Assembly: GCF_900100605.1 (NCBI RefSeq)
Contig: NZ_FNCN01000020.1
Coordinates: forward strand, 1 to 64,000
From: Sinosporangium album
Lineage (GTDB): Bacteria > Actinomycetota > Actinomycetes > Streptosporangiales > Streptosporangiaceae
Length of the DNA: 64,000 nt
Direction of reading: 5' to 3'
Numbering within the stretch: the stretch's first letter is position 1; every line of letters starts with the position of its first letter. The notes under the pieces were generated by a model. It was not told the DNA's origin. It did not search any database and was given only the letters and a program-made list of their open reading frames with translations. The position numbers and the translations under genes are program-made. Positions 12,991 to 48,522 of the stretch are shown here, in pieces.

Positions 12991-14457
12991 ATGAACCTGA
13001 CCGACGAACAACACGCCATCGTCGAAGCCGTCGCATCCGGCAAACACACCGTGGTCGAGGCAGGCGCCGGTGCCGGCAAGAGCAGCACCGCCCGCGCCGT
13101 CGCCCACGCCCTGCCGGGCAAGCGCATCCTCTATACGGCCTTCAACAAAAGCGTGATCTTGGACGCTAAGGACAGGATGCCGCGCAACGTCACCTGCTCC
13201 ACCGTCCACAAGCCCGCCTGGCACGCCATCCCCGAAAGCCACCGCCACCGCCTGGACATCCCCCAGCGCCAATCCGGCCAGCAGATCGCCCGCTTCCTCG
13301 GCATCACCCAGGCCGTGGTCATCGGCGACGCCAAGTTCAGCCCGGCCCAGATCGCACGCCTCGCCAAAGAAGCGGTCATGGCCTACTGCAAGTCAGACGC
13401 AGTCGAAGTGCTGGATGAGCACATCCGCATCCCGCACGGCATCGCGGGCGAAGCCCAGATCCGCGCCTACCAGCAGAAGATGCGGCCCCACATCGACGCC
13501 TACCGGGCCGACATCCGCGCCCGCGACGGCAAGCTCGCGTGGACCGGCGGCATCTACCTCAAGTCCTACCAGCTGCGCCTCATGCGGCAGAAAAACCCCA
13601 ACCTGGGGTACGACATCGTCCTGTTCGACGAAGCCCAAGACATCAGCCCGGTGATGAGGTCGGCCTACATCGACCTCCAGCAGGCGTCCGGCAGCCAAAT
13701 CGTCGCGGTCGGGGACAGCGCCCAGCAGATCAATGAATGGAACGGGGCGGTCAACGCCCTCCCCCAGATCCGCGCCGACGCCCGCCTGTACCTGACCCAG
13801 TCGTGGCGCTTCGGACAGGCCATCGCCCTGCTGGCGAACACATGGCTCGGCATGGCCGAAACCCCGCTCTGCCTCACCGGCAACCCCGCCATCAACTCCA
13901 CCGTCGGCACCGCCCCCTCCCCCGACGCGATCCTCACCCGCACCAACGCCACCGCCATGGAAGAGGTCATGGCCGCCCACCATGCGGGCAAGGTGCCGCT
14001 GCTGCTGAAGGGCTACAAGGAGATCCGGGACATGGCCTACGCCGCCCGCGACCTCCAGGCGGGCCGCCCCGCCGACCACGTCGAACTCGCCGGATTCCAG
14101 TCCTGGGGCCAAGTGCAGGACTACGTAGACCAGGAGGTCGACGGCGGGGAACTCGCCACGTTCGTCAACCTCGTCGACACCCACGGCTGCGACGCCCTCA
14201 TCGAGGTCGCCGACAAGTACCGGGAGGTCAAAGAGGGCGACGTCACCATCTCCACCATCCACTCCTCCAAGGGCGGCGAGTGGCCCACCGTCCGCGTCGC
14301 CGACGACGCCCGCACCCCCGACGACGACAAGCCCCTGTCCCCCGAGGAGATCCGCCTCAACTACGTCGCGGTCACCCGCGCCCAGCACCACCTCGACCCG
14401 GGGCCGCTCGGCAAGGTGTGCGCGCCTCCCGCCCTCCGCCACCTGCGCATCGCCTAA
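12991..14457 (+). CDS. UvrD/Rep-like superfamily 1 DNA helicase
   Basis: 488 residues. Walker A GAGAGKSS (residues 25-32), Walker B LFDEAQDI (211-218), SWRFG motif IV (271-275), motif V TIHSSKGGEW (422-431) and motif VI YVAVTRAQ (458-465) identify an SF1A ATP-dependent helicase. It is short for UvrD/PcrA, lacking the large 1B/2B insertions, as in many phage-encoded versions. GGAAGGAA precedes the ATG. First gene of the rightward island, driven by P1, so it is probably under phage control and used in replication or recombination. Confidence 0.9.
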   Translation: MNLTDEQHAIVEAVASGKHTVVEAGAGAGKSSTARAVAHALPGKRILYTAFNKSVILDAKDRMPRNVTCSTVHKPAWHAIPESHRHRLDIPQRQSGQQIARFLGITQAVVIGDAKFSPAQIARLAKEAVMAYCKSDAVEVLDEHIRIPHGIAGEAQIRAYQQKMRPHIDAYRADIRARDGKLAWTGGIYLKSYQLRLMRQKNPNLGYDIVLFDEAQDISPVMRSAYIDLQQASGSQIVAVGDSAQQINEWNGAVNALPQIRADARLYLTQSWRFGQAIALLANTWLGMAETPLCLTGNPAINSTVGTAPSPDAILTRTNATAMEEVMAAHHAGKVPLLLKGYKEIRDMAYAARDLQAGRPADHVELAGFQSWGQVQDYVDQEVDGGELATFVNLVDTHGCDALIEVADKYREVKEGDVTISTIHSSKGGEWPTVRVADDARTPDDDKPLSPEEIRLNYVAVTRAQHHLDPGPLGKVCAPPALRHLRIA

Positions 14458-15594: not shown

Positions 15595-15652
15595 AAATTC
15601 GGATGTGGGGTCTGGCGGAGGCCGGTAGCGTTCGGTGCAGTTCGCAAGGCCT

Positions 15653-15731
15653 GGAAAGGACACGGGTCGAACGGCATCGGTTACTGTGCAGAAAAAGAAT
15701 TCCGGTGCCTGCGCCATATCCGTGTCTTTCC
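15653..15731 (+). ncRNA. Y1: minimal Y-like RNA without tRNA module
   Basis: Terminal stem GGAAAGGACACGG (15653-15665) pairs with CCGTGTCTTTCC (15720-15731), one bulged G. Inside, an asymmetric internal loop has GTCGAAC on the 5-prime side and GCGCCATAT on the 3-prime side. A second stem GGCATCGG (15673-15680) with CCGGTGCC (15702-15709) is capped by a 21-nt A-rich loop starting TTAC. This is the Ro-binding core of Y RNAs, comparable with the GGUCCGAAG and GGUUA elements of vertebrate Y RNAs, with no effector module. Boundaries follow the stem ends; the true 5-prime and 3-prime ends are unknown. Confidence 0.8.
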
Positions 15732-15746
15732 CCGGCTCTGCGACCT

Positions 15747-15913
15747 GGTCAGGTCTGGTGTCGGTGCGGGTCGAAGCCTTGTCGGTTACCACTGTTAATG
15801 GGGATGTCGCGGGTTCGAATCCCGCCGCACGCTGAAAGGCGTGCGTAGCTCAGCGGCTAGAGCGCCTAAACCCGGTGAGCGTACCCATATCCGCGCCGAT
15901 TCCAGACCTGACC
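15747..15913 (+). ncRNA. Y2: YrlA-type Y RNA with a tRNA-like module
   Basis: Terminal stem: 12 bp (15747-15758 with 15902-15913), a 2x2 internal loop, then 9 bp (15761-15769 with 15891-15899). Core loop: GTCGAAGC opposite CGTACCCATAT. Second stem 15778-15785 with 15872-15879. The distal module is tRNA-like but circularly permuted: T-arm GCGGG-TTCGAAT-CCCGC (15809-15825), 7-bp acceptor-like stem 15826-15832 with 15839-15845 closed by TGAAAG, then TA, then D-arm GCTC-AGCGGCTA-GAGC (15848-15863). There is no anticodon arm; that end joins the Ro-binding stem. This is the layout described for bacterial YrlA RNAs, which mimic tRNA. Confidence 0.85.
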
Positions 15914-15917
15914 CCTA

Positions 15918-16075
15918 TCTTCGTCAGCCCTGCCGGGGGCGCGGGTCGAATTCCGGCCGGTTATCGCAGGTTCGATTCCTGTCGGGACCAAACCCCTCTG
16001 CGGGGAACCCGACGCCCATTGGCGGGCACCCGGCTGAAAGCGCCACATCCGCGCCTCCGGCAGGGCTGACGAAGA
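15918..16075 (+). ncRNA. Y3: divergent YrlA-type Y RNA
   Basis: Near-perfect 27-bp terminal stem (15918-15944 with 16049-16075, one G-U). Core loop GTCGAA opposite AGCGCCACAT. Second stem about 15951-15960 with 16030-16038. Module: T-arm GCAGG-TTCGATT-CCTGT (15966-15982) followed by CGGGACCA, which looks like a tRNA 3-prime end; a 4-bp acceptor-like stem (CGGG 15983-15986 with CCCG) encloses an extra hairpin CCCC-TCTGC-GGGG; then a shortened D-arm-like GCCC-ATTGGC-GGGC. Same order as Y2 and Y4 but much altered in the acceptor and D regions. Confidence 0.75.
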
Positions 16076-16085
16076 ACACGCGCCC

Positions 16086-16224
16086 GGAGGGGCGGGTCGA
16101 AGTCCATCGGTTACCGGGAACCGCAGGTCGCGGGTTCAAGTCCCGCCACCCCGCACGGGGTGTAGCTCAGAAGGTTAGAGCAGCAGTTGAAAACCCGGTG
16201 GACGCTCCCCATATCCGCCCTTCC
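16086..16224 (+). ncRNA. Y4: YrlA-type Y RNA with a tRNA-like module
   Basis: Terminal stem 16086-16095 with 16215-16224 (10 bp, one G-U). Core loop GTCGAAGT opposite ACGCTCCCCATAT. Second stem CCATCGG (16104-16110) with CCGGTGG (16195-16201). Module: T-arm GCGGG-TTCAAGT-CCCGC (16130-16146), acceptor-like stem CACCCC-GCAC-GGGGTG (16147-16162), TA, D-arm GCTC-AGAAGGTTA-GAGC (16165-16181). It ends about 45 nt before the Ro60 start codon, so it may be processed from a transcript shared with the Ro60 mRNA. Confidence 0.85.
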
Positions 16225-16225
16225 C

Positions 16226-16254
16226 CACATCCGCCCCCTGCGGGGCGGGTCGAA
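16226..16254 (+). promoter_or_regulatory. Permuted Y-like hairpin in the Ro60 leader
   Basis: CACAT (16226-16230), CCGCCCC-CTGC-GGGGCGG (16231-16248), GTCGAA (16249-16254), then CCC and the ribosome site AGGAG (16258-16262). The two conserved Ro-side strands occur in reverse order, joined by a tetraloop, so the same stem and internal loop can form in the mRNA. CCGCCCC could also compete for the 5-prime strand of Y4. Autoregulation by Ro60 is inferred. Confidence 0.5.
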
Positions 16255-16268
16255 CCCAGGAGACCAGC

Positions 16269-17933
16269 ATGGCCCGTGACCCCCTCGCCGCCGTGTCCAC
16301 CCTCACCACCCCGCAGACCCAACTCATCCCCGGCCGCGCCGACCAGGTCCGCAACGCCGCCGACGGCTACGTGTTCGCCAAGGACACGTGGCAGCGCGTC
16401 GAGGACTTCATCCTGCTCGGAACATCCGGCGGCACCTACTACGTGGGTGAGGACAAGCTGACCGCCGACAACGCCGATGTGCTGTTCCAGGCGATCACCG
16501 AGGACGGTCCGCGTGTCGTCGCCCTCATCCACGACGTCTCCACGGCTCGGCCGCCGCGCGCACCGAAGCCGCGGCCGGCGTTGTTCGCGCTCGCCGCCTG
16601 TTTCGCCAAGGGCACCCCTGAAACTCGTCAGGCGGTCAAGGAGGTGTTCACCGCGATCGTGCGCACCACGGACCATCTCGCGATGTTCTTCGGCTACTAC
16701 AAGAACCTCGGCGGCAAACCCAGCAGCAGGGGCATGGCGCCGCGCGTGGGCCGTTCGCTGCGCACCGCGCTCGGGTCGTGGTTCCTCCAGGGGACGCCGG
16801 ACGATGTGGCGTACCGGGCGTGCAAGGCCGCGCAGCGCAAGACCCCGCAGGGTGAGGCGTTCTCGCTTCGGGACGTGCTGCGCATCGCCCACCCTGCCGC
16901 CGACGACGTGCAGCGCCGGGTCCTGTTCGGGTGGATCGCGGGCAACGTCTCAGACGATGAGGCGCGCGATGAGCTGGTCGCCGTCGACCGGTTTTTGACC
17001 GCGAAGGCCGTCACCACCGTAAAGGAGGCGGTGCGGGTCGTGACCGAGGAGCGGGTGCCGTGGGAGTTCCTCCCCGACGCCATGCTCAAAGAGCCGGCGG
17101 TGTGGGACGCGCTGGTGGACACGGTCGGCATGACCGCGCTCATCCGCAACCTGGCCCGCATGACCCGCATCGGCACCCTCAAGCCGCTCGGCGACGCCAC
17201 CCGCCGCGCCGTAGCGCGCCTCACCGACGCGAACGCGCTCATCAAGGCGCGTATCCACCCGATGGACGCGTGGCTCGCGCTGCGCGTCTACGGCTCGGGC
17301 CGCTCCCAGCCGAACCCGCGCGCCGACGCCAACACGTGGCGGCCGGTGCCGGCGATCCTGGACGCGTTGGAGGGGACCTACGAGCTCGCGTTCGGCAGCG
17401 TGGAGCCGTCGGGGAGGCGGCTGCTGGTCGCGGTCGACTCCTCCGGGTCGATGTCCTGGAACCAGGTGGTGTCCGGCGGGTCGGCGATCGGCACCCCGTA
17501 CGAGGTGGGGTGCGCGATGGCGGTCATGCTCGCCCGCATCGAACGCGGAGGCGTCCACGTCATCGATGTCGACACCAGCGTCCACACCTCGAAAGTGACC
17601 GCGCGGACCAACCTCCGCGAGATCGCCTCCTGGGACTCGTCCGGCGGCGGCACCGACCTGTCACTGCCGTTCACGTACGCGCTTGCGCACCACACGGTCA
17701 CGGTGGACGGGTTCGTGGTGTTCACCGACAACGAGACGTGGGCCGGCCGCGCCCACCCCTCCCAGGCGCTCGCCCGCTACCGCAGCCTCGTGAACCCCGA
17801 TGCCCGGGTCGTGGTCGCCTCGATGGCCGCCACGGGCCATACGATCGCCGACCCCCGCGACGTCGGCGTGCTGAACGTCGCCGACGTGGACGCCTCCCTT
17901 CCGCAGGTCGTCGCGGGGTTCATCCGCGGCTGA
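16269..17933 (+). CDS. rsr: Ro60 / TROVE-domain RNA-binding protein
   Basis: 554 residues, usual length for Ro60 (Rsr). Residues 15-370 form the TROVE HEAT-like ring; diagnostic stretches are GYVFAKDTWQRVEDFILLG (33-51) and GGTYYVGEDKLTADNA (54-69). Residues 384-554 form a vWA domain with an intact MIDAS: DSSGS at 390-394, Thr462 and FTDNE at 485-489. Ro60 rings bind Y RNA on the outer surface and misfolded RNA 3-prime ends in the cavity; with PNPase the Deinococcus protein forms an RNA-degrading machine. AGGAG lies 6 bp before the ATG. Four Y-like RNAs directly upstream make this a complete Ro60-Y RNA locus. Confidence 0.95.
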   Translation: MARDPLAAVSTLTTPQTQLIPGRADQVRNAADGYVFAKDTWQRVEDFILLGTSGGTYYVGEDKLTADNADVLFQAITEDGPRVVALIHDVSTARPPRAPKPRPALFALAACFAKGTPETRQAVKEVFTAIVRTTDHLAMFFGYYKNLGGKPSSRGMAPRVGRSLRTALGSWFLQGTPDDVAYRACKAAQRKTPQGEAFSLRDVLRIAHPAADDVQRRVLFGWIAGNVSDDEARDELVAVDRFLTAKAVTTVKEAVRVVTEERVPWEFLPDAMLKEPAVWDALVDTVGMTALIRNLARMTRIGTLKPLGDATRRAVARLTDANALIKARIHPMDAWLALRVYGSGRSQPNPRADANTWRPVPAILDALEGTYELAFGSVEPSGRRLLVAVDSSGSMSWNQVVSGGSAIGTPYEVGCAMAVMLARIERGGVHVIDVDTSVHTSKVTARTNLREIASWDSSGGGTDLSLPFTYALAHHTVTVDGFVVFTDNETWAGRAHPSQALARYRSLVNPDARVVVASMAATGHTIADPRDVGVLNVADVDASLPQVVAGFIRG

Positions 17934-19327: not shown

Positions 19328-20659
19328 TTACGGGGTGGGAGCGAACGTGCCGAGCACGATCGACTCCGGCCGGTCGACCACGAGCCCGATCCGCTCCGAG
19401 CCGCGCAGCACGACGTATCCGGCCTCAAAGGCTCGGCCCGCTTCGGTGGACGCCTGCACCGACACCGACTCGCGGTCGTAGAGTTTGGCGCCGTAGCCGA
19501 ACGCGGCGGTCAGGAACGTGCCCTGGGTGATGGCGGTGGTGTCGACGACCTTCTGCCGCCACACCCGCTTCTCGCCACCCACCGCAACCGAGATCGCGAT
19601 CGTGTACTGGCCGTCGGTGCCGCGCTCTGTTTCGATCTGCTCCCAGTCCAGCGGGTGCAGGACCACGCCTGTGGCCTCGTAGTAGGCGAGCATCGCCCGC
19701 GTGGCGGCGCGGCGAAGCTGAAGCGACTTGATCGCGGCGTCGGCGGTCTCGCCGGTGTAGGTCTGGACGCCAGGGGTGTTCCACAGGCCGGTGATGCGGT
19801 CGCCGTCGCCGGTGCCGTACAGGATTTCGACGTCTTCCCGCATCTTGATGCCGTCGACCATGTTGCGGTCGAGGATGCCCCGCAGCCGCGCCTCGTCGGC
19901 GAGGGTGTTCTTGTGGACGTACTGGAGGTGCGCGACCTCGACGATCGGCGCCTTGTACGGCTTGAACCGCGTCACGGACGTGTTCGGCATGCCGAACTCG
20001 TCGGTGACGTCGCCGAGTGCGGGGCCGCCGCCGGGCTGCTGCCGCTCCGGCACCACATCGGCGTTGGAGACGAACCCGAGCTCGCGGAGACCGATGAGGA
20101 TGTTGCTGGTGGTCTTCTCGGACGGGAACAGGTCGCGGACGCGGCCGGGCCGCAGCTGCCGCTCGGTGAGGCCGACGTCCTCGGCGGTGCCGAACCCGTG
20201 CGTGGTGTGCGTCCCACCCGACAGGGTGAACACGTCTTTACGCTCGAACGAGTAGAGGCCCTGCTCGAAGTCGGCGACCTGGCCGAACTGGCGGAACCCG
20301 CCCGACTTCATCTCCAGATACGCCTCAGACTCCAAGAACGCGTCCGACAGGCTCTTGTGCTGGCGGCCGGAGGCGGCGGCGACAGCGTCGCGGGCGGCGT
20401 AGGAGGTGTCGGCGGGTTCGTCGAGGTACTGCTCGATGCCGAGGTGCTCACGCTGCGCGGCGATCAGGCTCTTGATGTCGCGGGCGTCTTTCAGCGTGCT
20501 CATGTAGGAGGCGTGGGCCTCGGGAGAGATGACGAGGTGGCCATCGCCGGTCTCGTCCTTGAAATGGGCGTTGGAGATCTTGTTGAGCTCGGCCGCTTTC
20601 GTTTCGAGTTGGCCTTCGAGCTCTTTGATCCGCTTTTCGATGTCTGCCGTCTTGGTCAC
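19328..20659 (-). CDS. HK97-fold major capsid protein
   Basis: 443 residues from a GTG at 20659, preceded by GGGGGGATC; a GTG at 20683 is the alternative. Residues 1-80 are a charged coiled coil (IEKRIKELEGQLETKAAELNK), the delta/scaffold domain normally cut off by the prohead protease. The rest has the HK97 capsid layout, including ITGLWNTPG near the E-loop/P-domain boundary and a C-terminal RIGLVVDRPESIVLGTF strand. It is downstream of the protease fusion, with a moron lipoprotein gene between them on the other strand. Confidence 0.85.
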   Translation of the reverse strand: MTKTADIEKRIKELEGQLETKAAELNKISNAHFKDETGDGHLVISPEAHASYMSTLKDARDIKSLIAAQREHLGIEQYLDEPADTSYAARDAVAAASGRQHKSLSDAFLESEAYLEMKSGGFRQFGQVADFEQGLYSFERKDVFTLSGGTHTTHGFGTAEDVGLTERQLRPGRVRDLFPSEKTTSNILIGLRELGFVSNADVVPERQQPGGGPALGDVTDEFGMPNTSVTRFKPYKAPIVEVAHLQYVHKNTLADEARLRGILDRNMVDGIKMREDVEILYGTGDGDRITGLWNTPGVQTYTGETADAAIKSLQLRRAATRAMLAYYEATGVVLHPLDWEQIETERGTDGQYTIAISVAVGGEKRVWRQKVVDTTAITQGTFLTAAFGYGAKLYDRESVSVQASTEAGRAFEAGYVVLRGSERIGLVVDRPESIVLGTFAPTP

Positions 20660-20919
20660 GGCGATCCCCCCGGATGCTGACACGGTTTGGCGTTGCGGTC
20701 GCTCGCCCGGTCAGCACCGGGACGTCAGACGATCAACGGGGAGGAAACCCCCCAAGCGGGGTTTGCGTCAGCGTTGGAACGATGCGGGAACGATTCGCCC
20801 GTTCCGCTCCGGCCCGGCGGCAGGGTCGGCTATGGTCCCGACCGTGCGGCGGTTCGGGGGCCTGGACGCCGGCACGTTGTTCACCGTCCGCAGCCTCGTG
20901 TGAGGAGCCCCCTGTCTTG

Positions 20920-22313: not shown

Positions 22314-22520
22314 TTATGCGGATGCGACTTTGATGTAGCCGTTGGACCATCCGTCGTACGACCGCCAGATACGGTCGTTCGACCAGCCGCGTTCTAGGCG
22401 GCTGGCCACCAGTTGATCAGCCTCCCCGGTGAACTGCCATTCACCGTCCTCGTCGAGGGTCATGGTGCCGATTTCGGCTCCTGATCGCACGTCCGTCACG
22501 CGCAAGGTCTTTCCCGTCAT
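22314..22520 (-). CDS. 68-residue hypothetical protein
   Basis: Starts at 22520, overlapping the stop of the protease fusion by 4 bp (ATGA). Beta-rich first half (LRVTDVRSGAEIGTMTLDEDGEW) and a Trp-rich second half (RGWSNDRIWRSYDGWSNGY). Length and composition resemble small proteins co-encoded with phage metallopeptidase/ADP-ribosyltransferase polyproteins; may be an inhibitor or packaging partner. Speculative. Confidence 0.65.
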   Translation of the reverse strand: MTGKTLRVTDVRSGAEIGTMTLDEDGEWQFTGEADQLVASRLERGWSNDRIWRSYDGWSNGYIKVASA

Positions 22521-25012
22521 GACCTCAGCCTACGCTGGGTGCCTGCCGCCTCGTCCTTGACGGCTTCCAGCCGCTCCAGCATATCTGTGAACCAGCTTCC
22601 GCGTCCGAGGTGGTGAAACTGTTCCCTGAGCGACGTGAGACGGTCCCATATGATGTCGATGTCCTCGGGCGCCATATCGTTCGGGAGCCACACTTGCCTG
22701 GCCTTGTGCACGAAATGCTTCATGAAGTCGTTGACGACTTCTGGGATTTTGATCGTTCCGTCGGGGGAGCGTTCGAAAGGCTGCTCCCAGGCAGCGCCGT
22801 GGTCGATACCGGCGACGCTGCCGTCGTCCAGGACCAGCCAGTTGCCCGGGTTCCGATCATAGTTGTCGATCACAAGGTCGAGCAGGCCCAGTAGACGGCC
22901 GCTGTCAGTGTCGGCGTACCGAGCCCGCTCGTTCATGGGCACGGTGTAGGCGTTCGGCCAATCGAGGTATTCCAGGTAAAGCAGACGGTCGCCGGCCCTC
23001 AACACGCCGGGCACTTGGGCTCCCACAGCCCTGCCGACCAAGGAGCCGAGCATTTCCGCATCGGCCTGGTGTTCAGGCGATACGTACGGGTCGTCGTTGA
23101 TGTACTTCTCGACGGCTTTGACACCGTTGCCGAACTCGACGAGCCGTGTCCGGGAGGCCGCTCCCTGGATAATCGGGTGCTCTGCGGCGATCCCTGATCT
23201 CAGCCCTTCCTCCAGGTGTTCTAAGCCGTCCAGGGTCGTGTGGTAGCGGCGTGGGCCGTCTCCGGGCTGTGGGTTGCCGGGCTCGTCCGATGGTGCGTTC
23301 TCTTCGCCCGCGGCTCGGCGTGGCCCGGGTGTGGTCCCCGCCCCGCCCGAACCGCTTCCAGCAGAACCGCTGCTGGTGGGGGAGAACCAGCCGCGGTTCT
23401 GCTGGAAGCCGCCGCGGCGGATGTAGCCGTAGTCGCGGGAGCCGCGAGATTTGGTTTCGGCCGGCGCGATCGTGAACACGGCACCGAACCGTGTCCACTG
23501 CCGTGCCGCAGCGGTGTGATCTCCTGCGTGGGGCCACTGCCCGGCTTTTGCCTCGGGGTTCTCTTCGGCGTCCTTCGCGTCGTCGTTGTCTGCGTCTTCG
23601 CTCTCGTGGGCGTCGGTGTCTCGCAGTAGGTCGTCCCACCCGTCGTCTTCCAGCTCCTCTCCTGCGGTGAGGGGGAAGGTGGCGACGTGCTGGTTGCCGC
23701 GGACCAGGGCCAGTTCGGTGAACTCGACCGGGTGGGCCGGGAGCGGGTCAGGCAGCGCGACCTGGTCGGGCTGCCGGTAGGTGAGGGTGACGTGCGGGGT
23801 GTAGCCGTGTTCAGCGCGTGCGGGCACGCCCGCCTCGGCGAGGTTGTCAACGACGTGTTGACGCAGCACTTCCAGGCCGGGCACGTCCACGGTCGCGAAT
23901 ACCGGCATGCCGTCCTCGCCCGGGGGGAAGGCGCCGATGCCGCCGATCCGGCCTGCGAGGGGGCCGGTGGTGGCGGCGGCCCGCTGGACGGCTTCGGCTG
24001 CGGCGGCCAGCGCGGTGTCGTCGAGGCCCTTGCCGAGGTAGCCGAGGGTCACGTGCAGCTGCTCGGCGGGCAACCCGTCGGGTATCGCGAGCTGGGAGGC
24101 GAGGTCGGGCGGCAGCATGAACGCCACCATCGTGCCGGGCCCGCTATCGCCGTCGGAGTCGGTGCCGGTGTCGGCTTTGGTCTCGACGTGCGGAGACGCG
24201 CCGGTCTGGCTGTCGGCGTCCACCCCTGCATCAGCAGAGCACTCATCCTGGTCACTGCCGGTGCGAGCGGTGGCGAGGTCTTCCAACGCCGACTTCGCGT
24301 CCATTCCCTCCAGCCACTCGGCGGGCAGCACACCGAGCGCGCCGCTCTCACGCGCCGCCCGGATCAGCTCACGCTTGGACTCGGCCGGGGATCCTGCACG
24401 GATGCACTCGGCGATCGAACCGGGCAGATCGACGGTGCCTCCCGCGGCGAAGACGGGACCGCCGGATAGGGGGTTGGACTTCACCGACAGGGTGAAGGTA
24501 CGGCTGTTGGCGCCGAACAGCACCGGCGAGTACTCGAACAGGTGGAGCCGTTTGATGCGGCGTACCCCGCGCGGGTCGCGGGTCGCGCCGCCCTTGGGAA
24601 CCTTGTAGCCGATCGACCACTCCTGCTCGCGGCCGAAAAACTTGACGTTGGAGAACGCCTCGCGGCCTGCGGTGGTCTCCAGGTTGAAACGCGCCTTGAC
24701 GTACAGGCCGCCCGCGTCCACCGGCCAGTCCTTGATGTGCGCGGTCATCGCCAGCAGCCGCGGATCACCGGGCATGAGCTCTTCGATGTGCTCGGTGCGG
24801 GCCACCCACACCTTCTCATCGTGGGAGAACAGGCCCTTGGGGGTGCGCACGGCGAGGGTTTCGGCGTACGCGCCCGGCACGATCAGATCGCCGACGTTGT
24901 CGATCACATTGGTGACCGATACGAGTGCTTCCACGGTGCCTTCGTCGGCTGTGGTCACCGTGCCGGCGGCGGCGCTCCCTGCGGCCTTGCGTTCGAGTTG
25001 CAGCGTCCCCAC
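22517..25012 (-). CDS. Prohead protease fused to 2H phosphoesterase and kinase-like domain
   Basis: 831 residues, about four times a normal prohead protease. Residues 1-180: HK97-type (U35) protease with His64 (FSHDEKVWVARTEH) and Ser133 (EWSIGYKV). Residues 294-450: 2H phosphoesterase (LigT/2-5 RNA ligase superfamily) with both HVT motifs, His320 (HVTLGYLG) and His407 (HVTLTYRQ). Residues 590-831: PI3/4-kinase-like domain with catalytic-loop DNYDRNPGNW (716-725) and metal-binding IDHG (736-739). Acidic and Gly/Ser linkers separate them. The protease should cut the capsid delta domain; the other parts would enter the prohead with it and may be released as internal, injectable effectors. Confidence 0.8.
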   Translation of the reverse strand: MGTLQLERKAAGSAAAGTVTTADEGTVEALVSVTNVIDNVGDLIVPGAYAETLAVRTPKGLFSHDEKVWVARTEHIEELMPGDPRLLAMTAHIKDWPVDAGGLYVKARFNLETTAGREAFSNVKFFGREQEWSIGYKVPKGGATRDPRGVRRIKRLHLFEYSPVLFGANSRTFTLSVKSNPLSGGPVFAAGGTVDLPGSIAECIRAGSPAESKRELIRAARESGALGVLPAEWLEGMDAKSALEDLATARTGSDQDECSADAGVDADSQTGASPHVETKADTGTDSDGDSGPGTMVAFMLPPDLASQLAIPDGLPAEQLHVTLGYLGKGLDDTALAAAAEAVQRAAATTGPLAGRIGGIGAFPPGEDGMPVFATVDVPGLEVLRQHVVDNLAEAGVPARAEHGYTPHVTLTYRQPDQVALPDPLPAHPVEFTELALVRGNQHVATFPLTAGEELEDDGWDDLLRDTDAHESEDADNDDAKDAEENPEAKAGQWPHAGDHTAAARQWTRFGAVFTIAPAETKSRGSRDYGYIRRGGFQQNRGWFSPTSSGSAGSGSGGAGTTPGPRRAAGEENAPSDEPGNPQPGDGPRRYHTTLDGLEHLEEGLRSGIAAEHPIIQGAASRTRLVEFGNGVKAVEKYINDDPYVSPEHQADAEMLGSLVGRAVGAQVPGVLRAGDRLLYLEYLDWPNAYTVPMNERARYADTDSGRLLGLLDLVIDNYDRNPGNWLVLDDGSVAGIDHGAAWEQPFERSPDGTIKIPEVVNDFMKHFVHKARQVWLPNDMAPEDIDIIWDRLTSLREQFHHLGRGSWFTDMLERLEAVKDEAAGTQRRLRS

Positions 25013-43611: not shown

Positions 43612-44363
43612 GACTGCTCACCGTCCCGGTTGGCGAGGTCGAGCAGCGCATCGCCGCAGCATGGCTTGTCCGCGTCGCAGGTGCAGGCCAGGGGGCGGCC
43701 CTTCAGATCAGGTAGGCGGGCGAGGATGTGCGCTCGCCGTTCGGCCAGGTGCGGCCATTTGGTGTCGGCGTCGGTGAGGGTGAGCCACTTGCGGTACAGG
43801 TCGACGACGTGGATGCGGGCGTCGTCTTCTTGGAGGGCGAGCTGGTTGCCTATCGCCCATTCGACGGTGAACGGGTTGGCGAACGGGGTGGTGTCGTCGA
43901 CGAGCCGGGCCCCGTCCGGGAGCCTCGCCCCGGCCGCGACCTGTTCGGGCCTCGCCACGCCGACCCGCATCGGCGTGGCCCCGTCGGGGGTGGTGTCGCT
44001 GAGGGGGCGGATCCGCTGCCAGTCGTCGTGGAACTCCTGGCGGCACAGCGCGCACACCGCCCCATCGTGAGTGGTCTGCATCTCGCAGAACCGGCAAGCG
44101 GCAACCTGGCCGCCGCGGCGCGGCGGCGGGCAGTCCTTCACCGCGTCCACACACGTGGGACACAGGCCCGCGGGCAGGGCGGACGGGTCGGCGTCGATCA
44201 GAGGCTCGGCGGGGACGACGGCGAGCTGCTCGCACGCGGCCAGGGCGAGCACGTTCGGCTGCGGGGCGATACCGAACAGCGCGGGGAACACGTGCCGTGT
44301 GGCGGGGTCGGCGGTGGCGTACGGGCTGTAGGGGTTGGGTGCGAGCGCCTGCGAGGTCGTCAC
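43608..44363 (-). CDS. DUF4326 protein with Cys-rich N-terminal half
   Basis: 251 residues, GTG start at 44363 overlapping the previous stop. Residues 60-110 hold CPTC, CRFC and CALC pairs (zinc). Residues 130-251 match DUF4326: RLVDDTTPFANPFTVEWAIG, DLYRKWL and LKGRPLACTCDADKPCCGDALL. DUF4326 proteins are frequent in phages and have no confirmed activity. Coupled to the Gp37/Gp68 gene. Confidence 0.75.
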   Translation of the reverse strand: MTTSQALAPNPYSPYATADPATRHVFPALFGIAPQPNVLALAACEQLAVVPAEPLIDADPSALPAGLCPTCVDAVKDCPPPRRGGQVAACRFCEMQTTHDGAVCALCRQEFHDDWQRIRPLSDTTPDGATPMRVGVARPEQVAAGARLPDGARLVDDTTPFANPFTVEWAIGNQLALQEDDARIHVVDLYRKWLTLTDADTKWPHLAERRAHILARLPDLKGRPLACTCDADKPCCGDALLDLANRDGEQS

Positions 44364-45403
44364 TGCTGCTCCTGCGAGGGATGAGGGTTGGGGTACTGGT
44401 CGTAGGTGCGGCCGTCGAGCTGGCGGCCGGCGTTCTTCTTCCCGACGCGCGCCATCAGCCACGTGCGCGGATCGGACGGCTGGTGGCCGACGGCGATGTA
44501 GCCGTCGGATTCGAGCTGGATCACTTCGCGGCGTCCGTGGACTTCGAGGGCGACGGCTTCCATGTGGGCGTTGTCGGCTTCTTCGGTGTCGCCGTACAGG
44601 GGGCCGACGGGTGCCCATTCGCCCCACTGTTTGAAGTGGAATGGCACGTCTGCGTCGGCGCATTGGTCACGCAGGCTGCGGAACCAGTCGGGGTGGGCTG
44701 GTCGTGCGCCGGGGCCTGACTCGCCTCCCGCGACTATCCAGTTGATCCGCTGGATCGGTCGCGGGCAGGGGCGGAGCGGAGAGCAGTTGTGCGGCAGGGT
44801 CTTGGTGAGGTCGATCGGCCCTAGCAGCGGCTCTGCGGAGATCCAGCGCACCGCGGCCGGGGTCTGGAGCAGGGCGGGGATTCGGGTATCGGCCCACTGC
44901 TGGTTCTCCACGCTCACGCCGATATGGACGTTGGGGAGTGGCCACCAGTCGTCGGGGCGGTCATAGGGGTCGTACTTTCCGTCCTGGTCGTACGCCCATG
45001 CGTGCTCGTACACCTCCTTCTGGAACTCGCGGTCGTTGAGTAGTGACCGCATACGGGCGTGCTGTTTGGTGAGCACCTGAAAGACATGCCGCTCGGTGGC
45101 CGCCATACGTCCGAACGCTTGAGCGATGTGCTCGCCGGGGATGTCCTCATTGAACAGATCTGCGAGTGAGTTGACGAACACGCGGCGGGGCTTGCGCCAC
45201 TTGAGCGGAGCGTCGAGCCGCTCCGGGTGCAGGACCAGTCCGGTCGACGCGCCGATCTCGGGTGAGTTGAAGTGTCTCTCGGCCATGCGGAACGGCGGGG
45301 TCCGCTCGATGTAGCAGTGGCGGCACCCCTCCGAGACGCGGGTGCAGCCTGAGGCGACGTTCCACGTGGTGTCGGTCCACTCGATCTGTGTGCGGGTGCT
45401 CAT
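44360..45403 (-). CDS. DUF5131 / phage Gp37-Gp68 family protein
   Basis: 347 residues. TTWNVASGCTRVSEGCRHCY (13-32) carries the CxxxxxxCxxC pattern of the DUF5131 family, which resembles radical-SAM proteins; NSLADLFNEDIPGEHIAQAF, VLTKQHARM, IGVSVENQQWADTRIPAL and WISAEPLLGPI also match. Enzymatic function is not established; a role in modifying nucleic acids or protein has been suggested. Part of a chain of overlapping leftward genes. Confidence 0.85.
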   Translation of the reverse strand: MSTRTQIEWTDTTWNVASGCTRVSEGCRHCYIERTPPFRMAERHFNSPEIGASTGLVLHPERLDAPLKWRKPRRVFVNSLADLFNEDIPGEHIAQAFGRMAATERHVFQVLTKQHARMRSLLNDREFQKEVYEHAWAYDQDGKYDPYDRPDDWWPLPNVHIGVSVENQQWADTRIPALLQTPAAVRWISAEPLLGPIDLTKTLPHNCSPLRPCPRPIQRINWIVAGGESGPGARPAHPDWFRSLRDQCADADVPFHFKQWGEWAPVGPLYGDTEEADNAHMEAVALEVHGRREVIQLESDGYIAVGHQPSDPRTWLMARVGKKNAGRQLDGRTYDQYPNPHPSQEQQ

Positions 45404-47035: not shown

Positions 47036-48175
47036 TCAGGTGATGAGGTGGGGGACGAACGATGAGGTGTTGTCGGTGATCAGGCCGCGGGTTTCGCGGA
47101 TGCCGAGGCCGGCGGGCTGGTGGCCGACGACCCACGCGCCGAGCACGGGGTGGTGGCCGTCGAAGTCGGGCAGCGGCCAGAACTCCTGGTACACGTGGCC
47201 TTCGGCGCCGTAGTCGCCGCTCTGGTGGGTGGTTCCGGCGGGGGTGACGATCTTGATGGAGGCGCCTTCTCGGCCGAGTAGCGGTTTGGCGACGTAGGAC
47301 TGCATGTCGCGGGGGCCGTCGAGGTAGGCGGGCAGCAGGTTGAGGTGGCCGGGGAACAGCTCCCACAGCAGGGCGAGGAGTGCCTTGTTCGACAGGAGCA
47401 TCTTCCACAGCGGCTCCACCCACGGCGTGTCGGGTTGGGCTTCGACGGCGGCCGGGCCGAACTCGTCGGCCACCGCCCATTCCCACGGGTACAGCTTGAA
47501 GAGCGCGTCGATGGGGCGGCGCTCGTTGTCGACGAACCGCAGCTGGCCGGTGTCGAAGCCGATCTGCTCGACGGTGAGCATGTGGGTGTCGATGCCGGCG
47601 AGGGTGGCGGTTTCGGCCATGTAGGCGGTGTTGAGGGCGTCCTCACCTGAGGTTTCCTCGCCGGTGTAGGCGAGATGCAGGAGGGTGCGGCCGGTTCTTC
47701 GCCATTGGTCGACGAGGCGTTCGTGGATGCTGTTCCACTGGTCGGCCTGCGAGTGGGTGTCGGTCATCCAGTGCCACTGGATGGCGGCGGATTCGACGAG
47801 GCTGGTGGGGGTGTCGGCGTTGTACTCCAGCAGCTTGGGATGGGCGCGGCCGTCGTAGCAGAAGTCGAACCTGCCGTACACGTGCGGGTCGCGCCGCTTC
47901 CAGGAGGCGGCGATCGGCTTGTGGAGCCAGTCGGGGATGCCGAACTCGTCGAACCGGTTGTGGCGGATGACGTGGTCGACGACGTCCATGCACATGGCAT
48001 GCAGTTCTTCGACCACGTCTTCGAGGTCTTCGACTTCGGCGAGGGAGAAGGTGTAGTGGACTGATTCGTCCCAGTACGGGCGGGCGGTGGCGGAGAGGTC
48101 GGTGTGGAACGCCAGGCCCTGGGATTCGACGATGTGCTGCCAGCCGGGACGGGCGCGGCCTTGGATGCGCTGCAT
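47036..48175 (-). CDS. Glutathionylspermidine synthase-like ATP-grasp ligase (YgiC-like)
   Basis: 379 residues from the ATG at 48175, overlapping the lipoprotein stop (ATGA). Characteristic stretches: YWDESVHYTFSLAEVEDLE, RFDFCYDGRAHPKLLEYNADTPTSLVE (ATP/Mg loop), FKLYPWEWAVADEFG, LLSNKALLALLWELFPGH and GREGASIKIV. This is the YgiC/YjfC branch of the amidoligase ATP-grasp family, proposed to add amine or peptide to a substrate. The upstream Gly/Ser-rich lipoprotein parallels E. coli YgiB and may be its target or partner. Confidence 0.85.
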   Translation of the reverse strand: MQRIQGRARPGWQHIVESQGLAFHTDLSATARPYWDESVHYTFSLAEVEDLEDVVEELHAMCMDVVDHVIRHNRFDEFGIPDWLHKPIAASWKRRDPHVYGRFDFCYDGRAHPKLLEYNADTPTSLVESAAIQWHWMTDTHSQADQWNSIHERLVDQWRRTGRTLLHLAYTGEETSGEDALNTAYMAETATLAGIDTHMLTVEQIGFDTGQLRFVDNERRPIDALFKLYPWEWAVADEFGPAAVEAQPDTPWVEPLWKMLLSNKALLALLWELFPGHLNLLPAYLDGPRDMQSYVAKPLLGREGASIKIVTPAGTTHQSGDYGAEGHVYQEFWPLPDFDGHHPVLGAWVVGHQPAGLGIRETRGLITDNTSSFVPHLIT

Positions 48176-48522
48176 CAGGAGCCGCTTCCGGACTTGCCGC
48201 TGCCGCCGAACCCGCCGGTGATGACCTTCCCGGAGCGGGTGGAGATGTTGCTGTTCGACGGCTTGGTCATGGTGCCGCCCGTGATCCGGCGGGTGGAGCT
48301 GTTGTGGGTGCCGCCGTAGATCCACACGAACGACGACGAGCTGCTGCCGCCGCGGTCGCATTTGTCGTCGTCGACGACCTTGTAGGTGCCGTCGGCCTGC
48401 CGGATGACGCAGTCGGCGGTGACCGTGGACTCGTCGGCGCAGCCGGTGAGGAGGAGGGACAGGGCGGCGACGGCGGCGGCGGGGACCGACGCGGACGATT
48501 TGCGGCGGGTGGGGGCTGCCAT
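48175..48522 (-). CDS. YgiB-like Gly/Ser-rich lipoprotein
   Basis: 115 residues. N-terminal basic region and hydrophobic segment ending in the lipobox LLTGC (Cys28). Two further Cys (about 38 and 54), then a long Gly/Ser/Thr-rich low-complexity tail (GGSSSSSFVWIYGG, GGFGGSGKSGSGS). Directly coupled to the ATP-grasp gene, as ygiB is to ygiC. The tail could be the acceptor of ligase modification; that is inferred from gene pairing. Confidence 0.7.
   Translation of the reverse strand: MAAPTRRKSSASVPAAAVAALSLLLTGCADESTVTADCVIRQADGTYKVVDDDKCDRGGSSSSSFVWIYGGTHNSSTRRITGGTMTKPSNSNISTRSGKVITGGFGGSGKSGSGS

Follow-up and report, generated by a model that had tools for sequence, protein, structure and literature searches.

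The locus examined in this study raises the question of how Ro60 and Y RNA are matched in cells. The window (here, the whole 64,000-nucleotide, or 64-kb, stretch of Sinosporangium album DNA that was analyzed) carries a ro60 gene behind four tandem Y units, and a fifth copy of the Y core motif, in permuted order (CACATCCGCC-loop-GGCGGGTCGAA), lies between the last unit, Y4, and the ribosome-binding site. This leader offers a short, testable answer: judged from sequence, it likely (probability about 0.6) makes Ro60 repress its own translation, with the Y RNAs relieving repression.

Four predicted Y RNAs upstream of ro60

The features considered are as follows.
15626..15631, + strand: candidate promoter -10 element TAGCGT upstream of Y1, proposed from a TAnnGT-like motif
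15653..15731, + strand: Y1, predicted minimal Y RNA without a tRNA-like module (fold; model R2; covariation)
15747..15913, + strand: Y2, predicted tRNA-mimicking Y RNA (model R1; YrlA score; D-arm; covariation)
15918..16075, + strand: Y3, predicted Y RNA with a T-arm and a diverged D-arm (model R1; YrlA score; lower stem)
16086..16224, + strand: Y4, predicted tRNA-mimicking Y RNA (model R1; YrlA score; D-arm; covariation)
16226..16254, + strand: permuted Y-core hairpin in the ro60 leader, CACATCCGCCCC-CTGC-GGGGCGGGTCGAA (pattern search)
16258..16262, + strand: ro60 ribosome-binding site AGGAG (sequence; SD-like sites across 32 loci)
16269..17933, + strand: ro60/rsr, 554 aa, TROVE ring plus vWA domain (Pfam and PDB matches)

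All four tandem units that the initial annotation had placed upstream of ro60 were found, and they are prophage-borne. A lower stem, a conserved internal loop, an upper stem and an adjoining ro60 were all observed, with GGGTCGAA starting at positions 15664, 15768, 15943 and 16094 and its partner (CCATATCC or CCACATCC) at 15714, 15885, 16043 and 16209. The long lower stems fold as had been described, with complementarity of 87% over 23 nt in Y2 (15747-15769/15891-15913) and 96% over 27 nt in Y3 (15918-15944/16049-16075); of the annotated gaps, those of 4 and 10 nt hold exactly, while the first measures 15 or 7 nt according to which Y1 end is chosen. Two covariance models, R1 and R2, were built in this analysis. 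R1 found Y2 (E 2e-25) and Y3 (E 3e-13), both absent from its training alignment, as well as its training member Y4 (E 3e-28), and R2 found its own training member Y1 (E 5e-12). At E < 0.3 the two models matched only the places of Y1-Y4 in the window, and R1 gave one additional weak match genome-wide (39.6 bits), which has no Y motif. Stem covariation among relatives is strong: the Y-unit alignments contain 222, 139 and 66 two-sided change cells, the last in the Y1-type family of 21 rows, and in each case 0 of 500 shuffles reached the observed level. These alignments comprise 29 of 32 first units (A1; L014, L024 and L052 omitted for odd length), 36 of 40 last units (A2; L023, L034, L037 and L051 omitted) and all 21 rows of A3, with L031 and L033 removed from the unit sets because they nearly duplicate L003. 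Y1-Y4 are thus confirmed, at the level of sequence, as predicted Y RNAs.

The Rfam YrlA model, whose use had been proposed with the initial annotation, matched Y4 (46.9 bits), Y2 (37.6 bits) and, weakly, Y3 (20.4 bits), none reaching its gathering score of 69, and the Rfam search at gathering threshold returned no match. Matches to the Rfam NLPC-P60, twister-sister and miRNA models fell under their own gathering scores and were taken as chance. The view that three units mimic tRNA holds for Y2 and Y4, which carry the full YrlA-type permuted module of T-arm, closed acceptor and D-arm; Y3 has the module only in part, its D-arm having diverged, and Y1 lacks it, as annotated. The D-arm of Y4 differs by one edit from that of host tRNA-Ile and the D-arm of Y2 by two edits from its closest host tRNA counterpart, while that of Y3 is five edits away, which is chance level (shuffled mean 5.7). 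Of 82 units compared, 65 have D-arms within three edits of host tRNA D-arms, compared to 1 of 82 in a shuffled control, and D-arms inside one array resemble different tRNA classes, tRNA-Glu among them. ARAGORN found 0 tRNA genes in the window.

The identity of the downstream gene was borne out by Pfam (TROVE, 4e-21; vWA_Ro60, 4e-39) and PDB matches (Ro60, 8e-71; Rsr, 3e-70). Its vWA domain contains a DxSxS motif, which we take to be the metal-site motif, as DSSGS aligned with DVSAS and DVSGS. With 327.8 bits against a cut-off of 900 for the NCBIfam Rsr equivalog NF041674, the protein belongs to the same superfamily and lies outside the curated equivalog. A TAnnGT-like motif was seen by eye at a comparable distance upstream in many relatives, and a consensus scan for sigma-70 promoters gave none.

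Y units were found in 42 of the 44 near-group sources searched, the remaining two being without upstream sequence. Mixed arrays of short and tRNA-like units, which had been called unusual, occur in 25 of the 42 loci (24 if L019, with its weak second unit, is set aside), as counted by eye from matches of R1 and R2, whose training sets drew on some of those loci, as well as in several actinophages; the tally rests on these matches because the automatic parser missed units (e.g. in L005, L019, L016 and L027). Across species, units group according to their place in the array (11 label changes versus 33.4 when shuffled, with 0 of 200 shuffles as low), so each position retains its identity. Together with the resemblance of the D-arms to different tRNA classes, this clustering gives indirect support to the idea that different Y RNAs may do different jobs. 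The placement of ro60 inside a head-gene module was not upheld: the gene is the last of the rightward early region, and the closest head gene located, for the major head protein (19328-20683), lies on the opposite strand. Among the six relatives inspected, five have the locus among host-type genes. Gene calls around ro60 were ORF predictions from base composition, and the flanks covered span only about 2.5-6 kb. The Ro60/Y-RNA module appears to be a portable cassette; in the window a prophage carries it, with DNA-metabolism genes on one side and head genes on the other.

A permuted Y core in the ro60 leader

In the Y units, the core motif consists of CGGGTCGA opposite CAYATCCG; in the leader the order of the two strands is swapped, and a short loop closes what is the open end of the Y RNA. 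The initial annotation did not mention this element. A pattern of 13 fixed letters, 11 of which vary little or not at all in the Y alignments, was found within the last 110 nt upstream of ro60 in 32 of 45 related loci, compared to 0 of 18,000 shuffled leaders. Conservation of the 13 invariant columns in the leader alignment (A4; 31 of 32 leaders, L031 being identical to L003) is largely set by that search pattern. Evidence for conservation was taken from positions outside the pattern, which are retained as well: the preceding CAY (25 of 31), base four of CGAA (26 of 31) and two helix pairs (30 of 31 each). In all 32 loci an SD-like site follows 2-10 nt past the leader CGA, together with an in-frame start. 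The element was missing in 13 of the 45 loci, including all seven from Herbidospora (L041-L046 and L050), and a permuted element directly before ro60 was found in 0 of 9 leaders of other actinophages, where fuzzy matches are unit junctions.

Two exact leader patterns gave one match per genome in 20 of 21 genomes, and on manual comparison of coordinates 20 of 20 matches lie at the ro60 leader (reversed-pattern control, 4 matches); as the 21 genomes were chosen for having the element, this result shows the absence of second copies. Among 166 viral-contig stretches with looser patterns, a stricter leader form occurred five times, in every case before ro60 and with Y cores upstream. The loose pattern ATCCGC-N-GCGGGTCGA gave 5 matches in the host's own genome (control, 0) and 146 in 20 other genomes (control, 62), ro60 leaders included. 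The stricter patterns match only ro60 leaders. A wider Ro60 regulon is unsupported by these sequences, although the excess of loose matches over the control means that further sites may exist.

Helix pairing in the leader reaches 99.1%, which is no evidence in itself because the search pattern dictates five of the seven pairs, and covariation there amounts to one two-sided change, with every measure equaled in at least 16 of 500 shuffles. The minimum-free-energy fold of the window's leader opens three helix pairs, while the centroid retains all nine (z -1.25). The upper helix of the Y RNA is absent from the element, so its affinity for Ro60 may be low.

Sequestration of the SD by an upstream CUCC tract seemed convincing in single folds. 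It was rejected, as the SD was unpaired at 0.267 versus 0.263 with shuffled upstream sequence; CTCC occurs in 23 of 30 loci (16.9 expected). Since CUCC pairing is no better than shuffled, any blocking must come from bound protein. A transcription terminator at the hairpin was likewise rejected: the hairpin is not followed by a U tract, and the + strand yielded no terminator.

Proposed autoregulation and its alternatives

The core motif is a putative Ro60 site, an assignment based on the literature on lower stems, and in having a copy of this putative main RNA site beside the ribosome-binding site the ro60 leader shares a feature of autoregulatory leaders. In the proposed circuit, the array and ro60 would be co-transcribed and the long stems cut, releasing the Y RNAs, which Ro60 would occupy first because they offer both flanking helices. 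Once the Y RNAs were exhausted, free Ro60 would settle on the one-helix leader site and block the ribosome, so that Ro60 output would track Y RNA supply. The tRNA-like heads could meanwhile recruit tRNA-handling factors or host PNPase to the Ro60 ring. That free Y RNA is read out as Ro60 translation through the permuted core has, on these data, about an even chance of being correct. Such a circuit would resemble the mimic-leader autoregulation of ribosomal proteins and E. coli threonyl-tRNA synthetase, which repress their own mRNAs through a 5' UTR copy of their main RNA site (PMC8058203), although protein and RNA are unrelated and the copy here is circularly permuted. No Ro60 autoregulation or Y-like ro60 leader appeared among the literature matches listed, a set in which the principal bacterial Y RNA papers were outside reach, and the matches on autoregulation that were examined concerned other genes. 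If correct, such control of Ro60 would have no known precedent, coupled as it is to an array whose positions mimic different tRNA classes, and would represent a protein-binding RNA motif moved into an mRNA leader by circular permutation.

There are several potential alternative explanations. The motif could be a functionless relic of unequal recombination, joining the 3' half of one Y unit to the 5' half of the next. This order is that of any unit junction, the other actinophages do show fuzzy junction matches, and the 13 loci without the element would fit; however, the motif is kept in 32 of 45 loci whose ro60 is 56-79% identical to that of the window, conservation extends to the pattern-free positions, the loops are variable (some of UUCG type), and the motif stays near the ribosome-binding site even though its distance from the last Y unit is variable, which makes a relic quite improbable. 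It is also conceivable, if unlikely, that the hairpin is a processing signal at which Ro60 or a nuclease cuts the Y precursor from the ro60 mRNA, or that it protects the mRNA 5' end. In Y2 and Y3 the lower stems, at 23-29 bp, would suit RNase III, and the hairpin sits where the Y array meets the coding region; the leader stem, however, spans only 7-9 bp, and the element copies the Y core motif, not an extended duplex.

The Y RNAs may only tether Ro60 to host PNPase for structured-RNA decay, without feedback, as a Y RNA tethers Rsr to PNPase in Deinococcus (RYPER; PMC8394870, PMC7790460 and PMC8058203). PNPase is encoded in the host genome, but the leader element and the position-specific diversification of the units would be left unexplained, and this simpler reading is rather doubtful. 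The tRNA-like heads could instead act as decoys while the phage grows, diverting defence or toxin nucleases that cleave tRNA; the D-arm resemblance in 65 of 82 units favors such a role, and a competitive inhibitor is suggested in PMC7790460. The heads have no anticodon arm, and thus nothing for anticodon nucleases to cut, and five of the six relatives inspected reside among host-type genes rather than in phages, so the likelihood of a decoy is low.

Comparison with known Ro60 systems

YrlA/Yrl RNAs (Rfam RF02553; Salmonella, Mycobacterium smegmatis) share the Ro60-binding terminal stem, the permuted T-arm, closed acceptor and D-arm, and an adjoining ro60/rsr, whereas here there are up to four units per array, one of them without a tRNA head, with position-specific types, scores under the Rfam threshold and the array upstream of ro60; the host's one RtcB is on another contig. 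The Deinococcus RYPER has an Rsr-type Ro60 with a TROVE ring and a vWA domain like the present one, while several different Y RNAs and a permuted site in the ro60 leader distinguish the present locus. The array offers Y RNAs that differ naturally in their tRNA heads, useful for finding the partners that those heads recruit. Y or YrlA-like units also lie upstream of ro60 in the actinophages Cashline, BearBQ, Sparky, FuzzBuster, LRRHood and prophiGD43A-5, but the permuted element directly before ro60 was found here and not there. In FuzzBuster, the last minimal unit itself extends into the ribosome-binding site.

A phage-borne Ro60 and its genomic setting

The window is a prophage, and the initial annotation was right to call its Ro60 phage-borne, since genes for an integrase, a helicase, a major head protein, a protease, a portal and a terminase surround ro60. 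The last four lie past ro60 on the opposite strand. The genes that define this arrangement are as follows:

1853-2884: integrase
12991-14457: helicase, before ro60
16269-17933: ro60/Rsr gene, 554 aa, TROVE domain and Ro60 vWA domain

The protein matches solved Ro60 and Deinococcus Rsr structures at E <= 3e-70, retains the DxSxS metal-site motif, and is the sole TROVE protein detected in the 7.06-Mb genome assembly containing the window. None of nine neighbouring ORFs was matched in the flanks (about 2.5-6 kb per side at most) of 62 ro60-bearing loci. Among six relatives scanned, five (L016, L025, L028, L038 and L042) are flanked by host-type genes, including P450, ABC transporter, glycosyl hydrolase, isochorismatase and ferric reductase genes, and L013 is flanked by a phage antirepressor. 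We infer that Ro60 and its Y RNAs form a portable cassette. Other genes observed in the prophage were:

22517-25012, minus strand: prohead protease (S78) fused to a 2'-5' RNA ligase/2H phosphoesterase domain, with a weak PI3K-like stretch
44360-45403, minus strand: DUF5131 protein, the first part of which matches the PADLOC candidate defence models PDC-M41B and PDC-M30B
47036-48361, minus strand: glutathionylspermidine-synthase-like prophage gene

Y RNA units in the window and in related loci

Four predicted Y RNA units (Y1-Y4) are packed into 570 nt upstream of ro60. In each, the lower stem ends in CGGGU/AUCCG, an internal loop places CGAA opposite CAUAU or CACAU, and the upper stem contains a terminal CGG followed by UUA. 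Y1 has a plain loop, in agreement with the earlier view that it lacks a tRNA-like module. The permuted tRNA-like module claimed for Y2-Y4 is complete in Y2 and Y4 (T-arm, closed acceptor and D-arm), while Y3 combines a T-arm with a D-arm that resembles host tRNAs no more closely than shuffled sequences do. The Rfam YrlA model, proposed as a check, matched Y4, Y2 and Y3, all below its threshold.

Relatives were gathered from genomes (46 loci) and viral contigs (8 loci), and the first tRNA-like units of the arrays, the last tRNA-like units and the minimal units were aligned separately. Paired cells made up 97.5%, 92.4% and 92.3% of these alignments, respectively, with 139, 222 and 66 cells altered on both sides; none of 500 shuffles matched these values in the three alignments, and sliding the partners reduced pairing to 34-50%. 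The stems thus covary among relatives, as anticipated. Models built from two of the alignments found units in 42 of 44 near-group sources, a count that includes the window and many training sources; the two lacking units were L049, which begins inside ro60, and L056, a fragment. Outside training, the same models matched the actinophages Cashline, BearBQ, Sparky, FuzzBuster, LRRHood, prophiGD43A-5 and Forza, and gave Y-like matches close to tRNA genes in the Streptomyces phages Bmoc (L067) and Beuffert (L068), where the distance to the downstream ro60 is ~0.8-2.4 kb. Loci usually carry two to four units (the second unit of L019 is weak). In a by-eye tally, minimal units occur together with tRNA-like ones in 25 of 42 loci, so arrays of mixed type are common and not unusual as first supposed. 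A Y-like unit was also seen outside Actinomycetota, immediately 3' of a distant ro60 in a Polyangiaceae MAG (L054 2146-2219).

On a tree of 77 tRNA-like units, which is built from few columns and has 35 weak inner branches out of 74, the labels first, middle and last required 11 changes compared to 33.4 with shuffled labels (0/200 as low). Judged by their sequences, Y units at different array positions are not interchangeable. In 65 of 82 units the D-arm differed by at most three edits from that of a host tRNA, versus 1 of 82 in the shuffled control, the host set comprising 57 distinct sequences from the window's own genome. A unit nearest tRNA-Glu occurs in seven loci, and an AGCUCA-type unit adjoins it in six of them. 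Known YrlA RNAs are modified by DusA and TruB and are described as PNPase-binding in a passage of PMC8394870. The host genome encodes PNPase, as well as RtcB on a contig other than that of the window.

A permuted Y core before ro60

Between Y4 and the ro60 ribosome-binding site lies a leader element (16226-16254; CACATCCGCCCC-CTGC-GGGGCGGGTCGAA) consisting of the Y core motif with its strand order swapped. The CGGGU/AUCCG helix of a Y RNA has an open lower end and continues at the top through the CGAA/CAYAU loop into the upper stem; in the leader element a short loop seals the lower end, and the side with CGAA is turned towards the ribosome-binding site. The pattern was found in 32 of 45 loci and in 0 of 18,000 shuffled leaders. 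Thirteen letters and five of seven pairs were preset in the search, so their constancy is no evidence. At positions free of the pattern, the preceding CAY occurs in 25/31, the fourth CGAA base in 26/31 and each of the two free pairs in 30/31. Hairpin loops vary, with UUCG types among them, and the only compensatory change is an A-U to G-C replacement in L036. An SD-like site follows 2-10 nt 3' of the leader CGA in all 32. Exact patterns gave one match per genome in 20 genomes, each at ro60, a 21st genome (L017) having a G-U variant, and all five occurrences of the strict form in viral contigs precede ro60. Among the literature matches listed, no Y-like ro60 leader was found.

A copy of the Y motif at the ribosome-binding site would most simply be read as an autorepression site, of the type through which ribosomal proteins and threonyl-tRNA synthetase repress themselves according to a section of PMC8058203. 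Since pairing of the ribosome-binding site with the upstream pyrimidine tract showed no excess over shuffled controls, the proposed block is assigned to bound protein: Ro60 sitting on the leader would prevent translation. With its one helix, the leader should be a weaker Ro60 ligand than a complete Y RNA, and repression would therefore be expected only when Y RNA is short. In Microbacterium phage FuzzBuster (L066 2418-2491), the 3' arm of the last minimal Y unit overlaps the ro60 ribosome-binding site (fold z only -1.2), which may represent a different, possibly independent form of the same control.

Other phage Y RNAs and tRNA-like RNAs

PMC12282133 cites Chen 2014 for mycobacteriophage Y RNAs and suggests that a Listeria phage has Y RNAs close to an Rsr homologue. 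Permuted tRNA-like RNAs of a second family were observed 3' of a DUF7873 gene (Pfam checked at four loci), with no Ro60 core motif seen and no match in an Rfam scan of four loci. This family occurs at:

L336, around 1501 (window's own genome, C50:407525-407676)
L331-L335
L018, 5150-5550

These represent 6 of 60 genomes, the window's own included, plus L018. By eye, a conserved TCTCGCTCCAGATTCAGCAT lies between two permuted tRNA-like modules in 6 of 7 loci (L336 has one module), and a terminator-like hairpin comes next.
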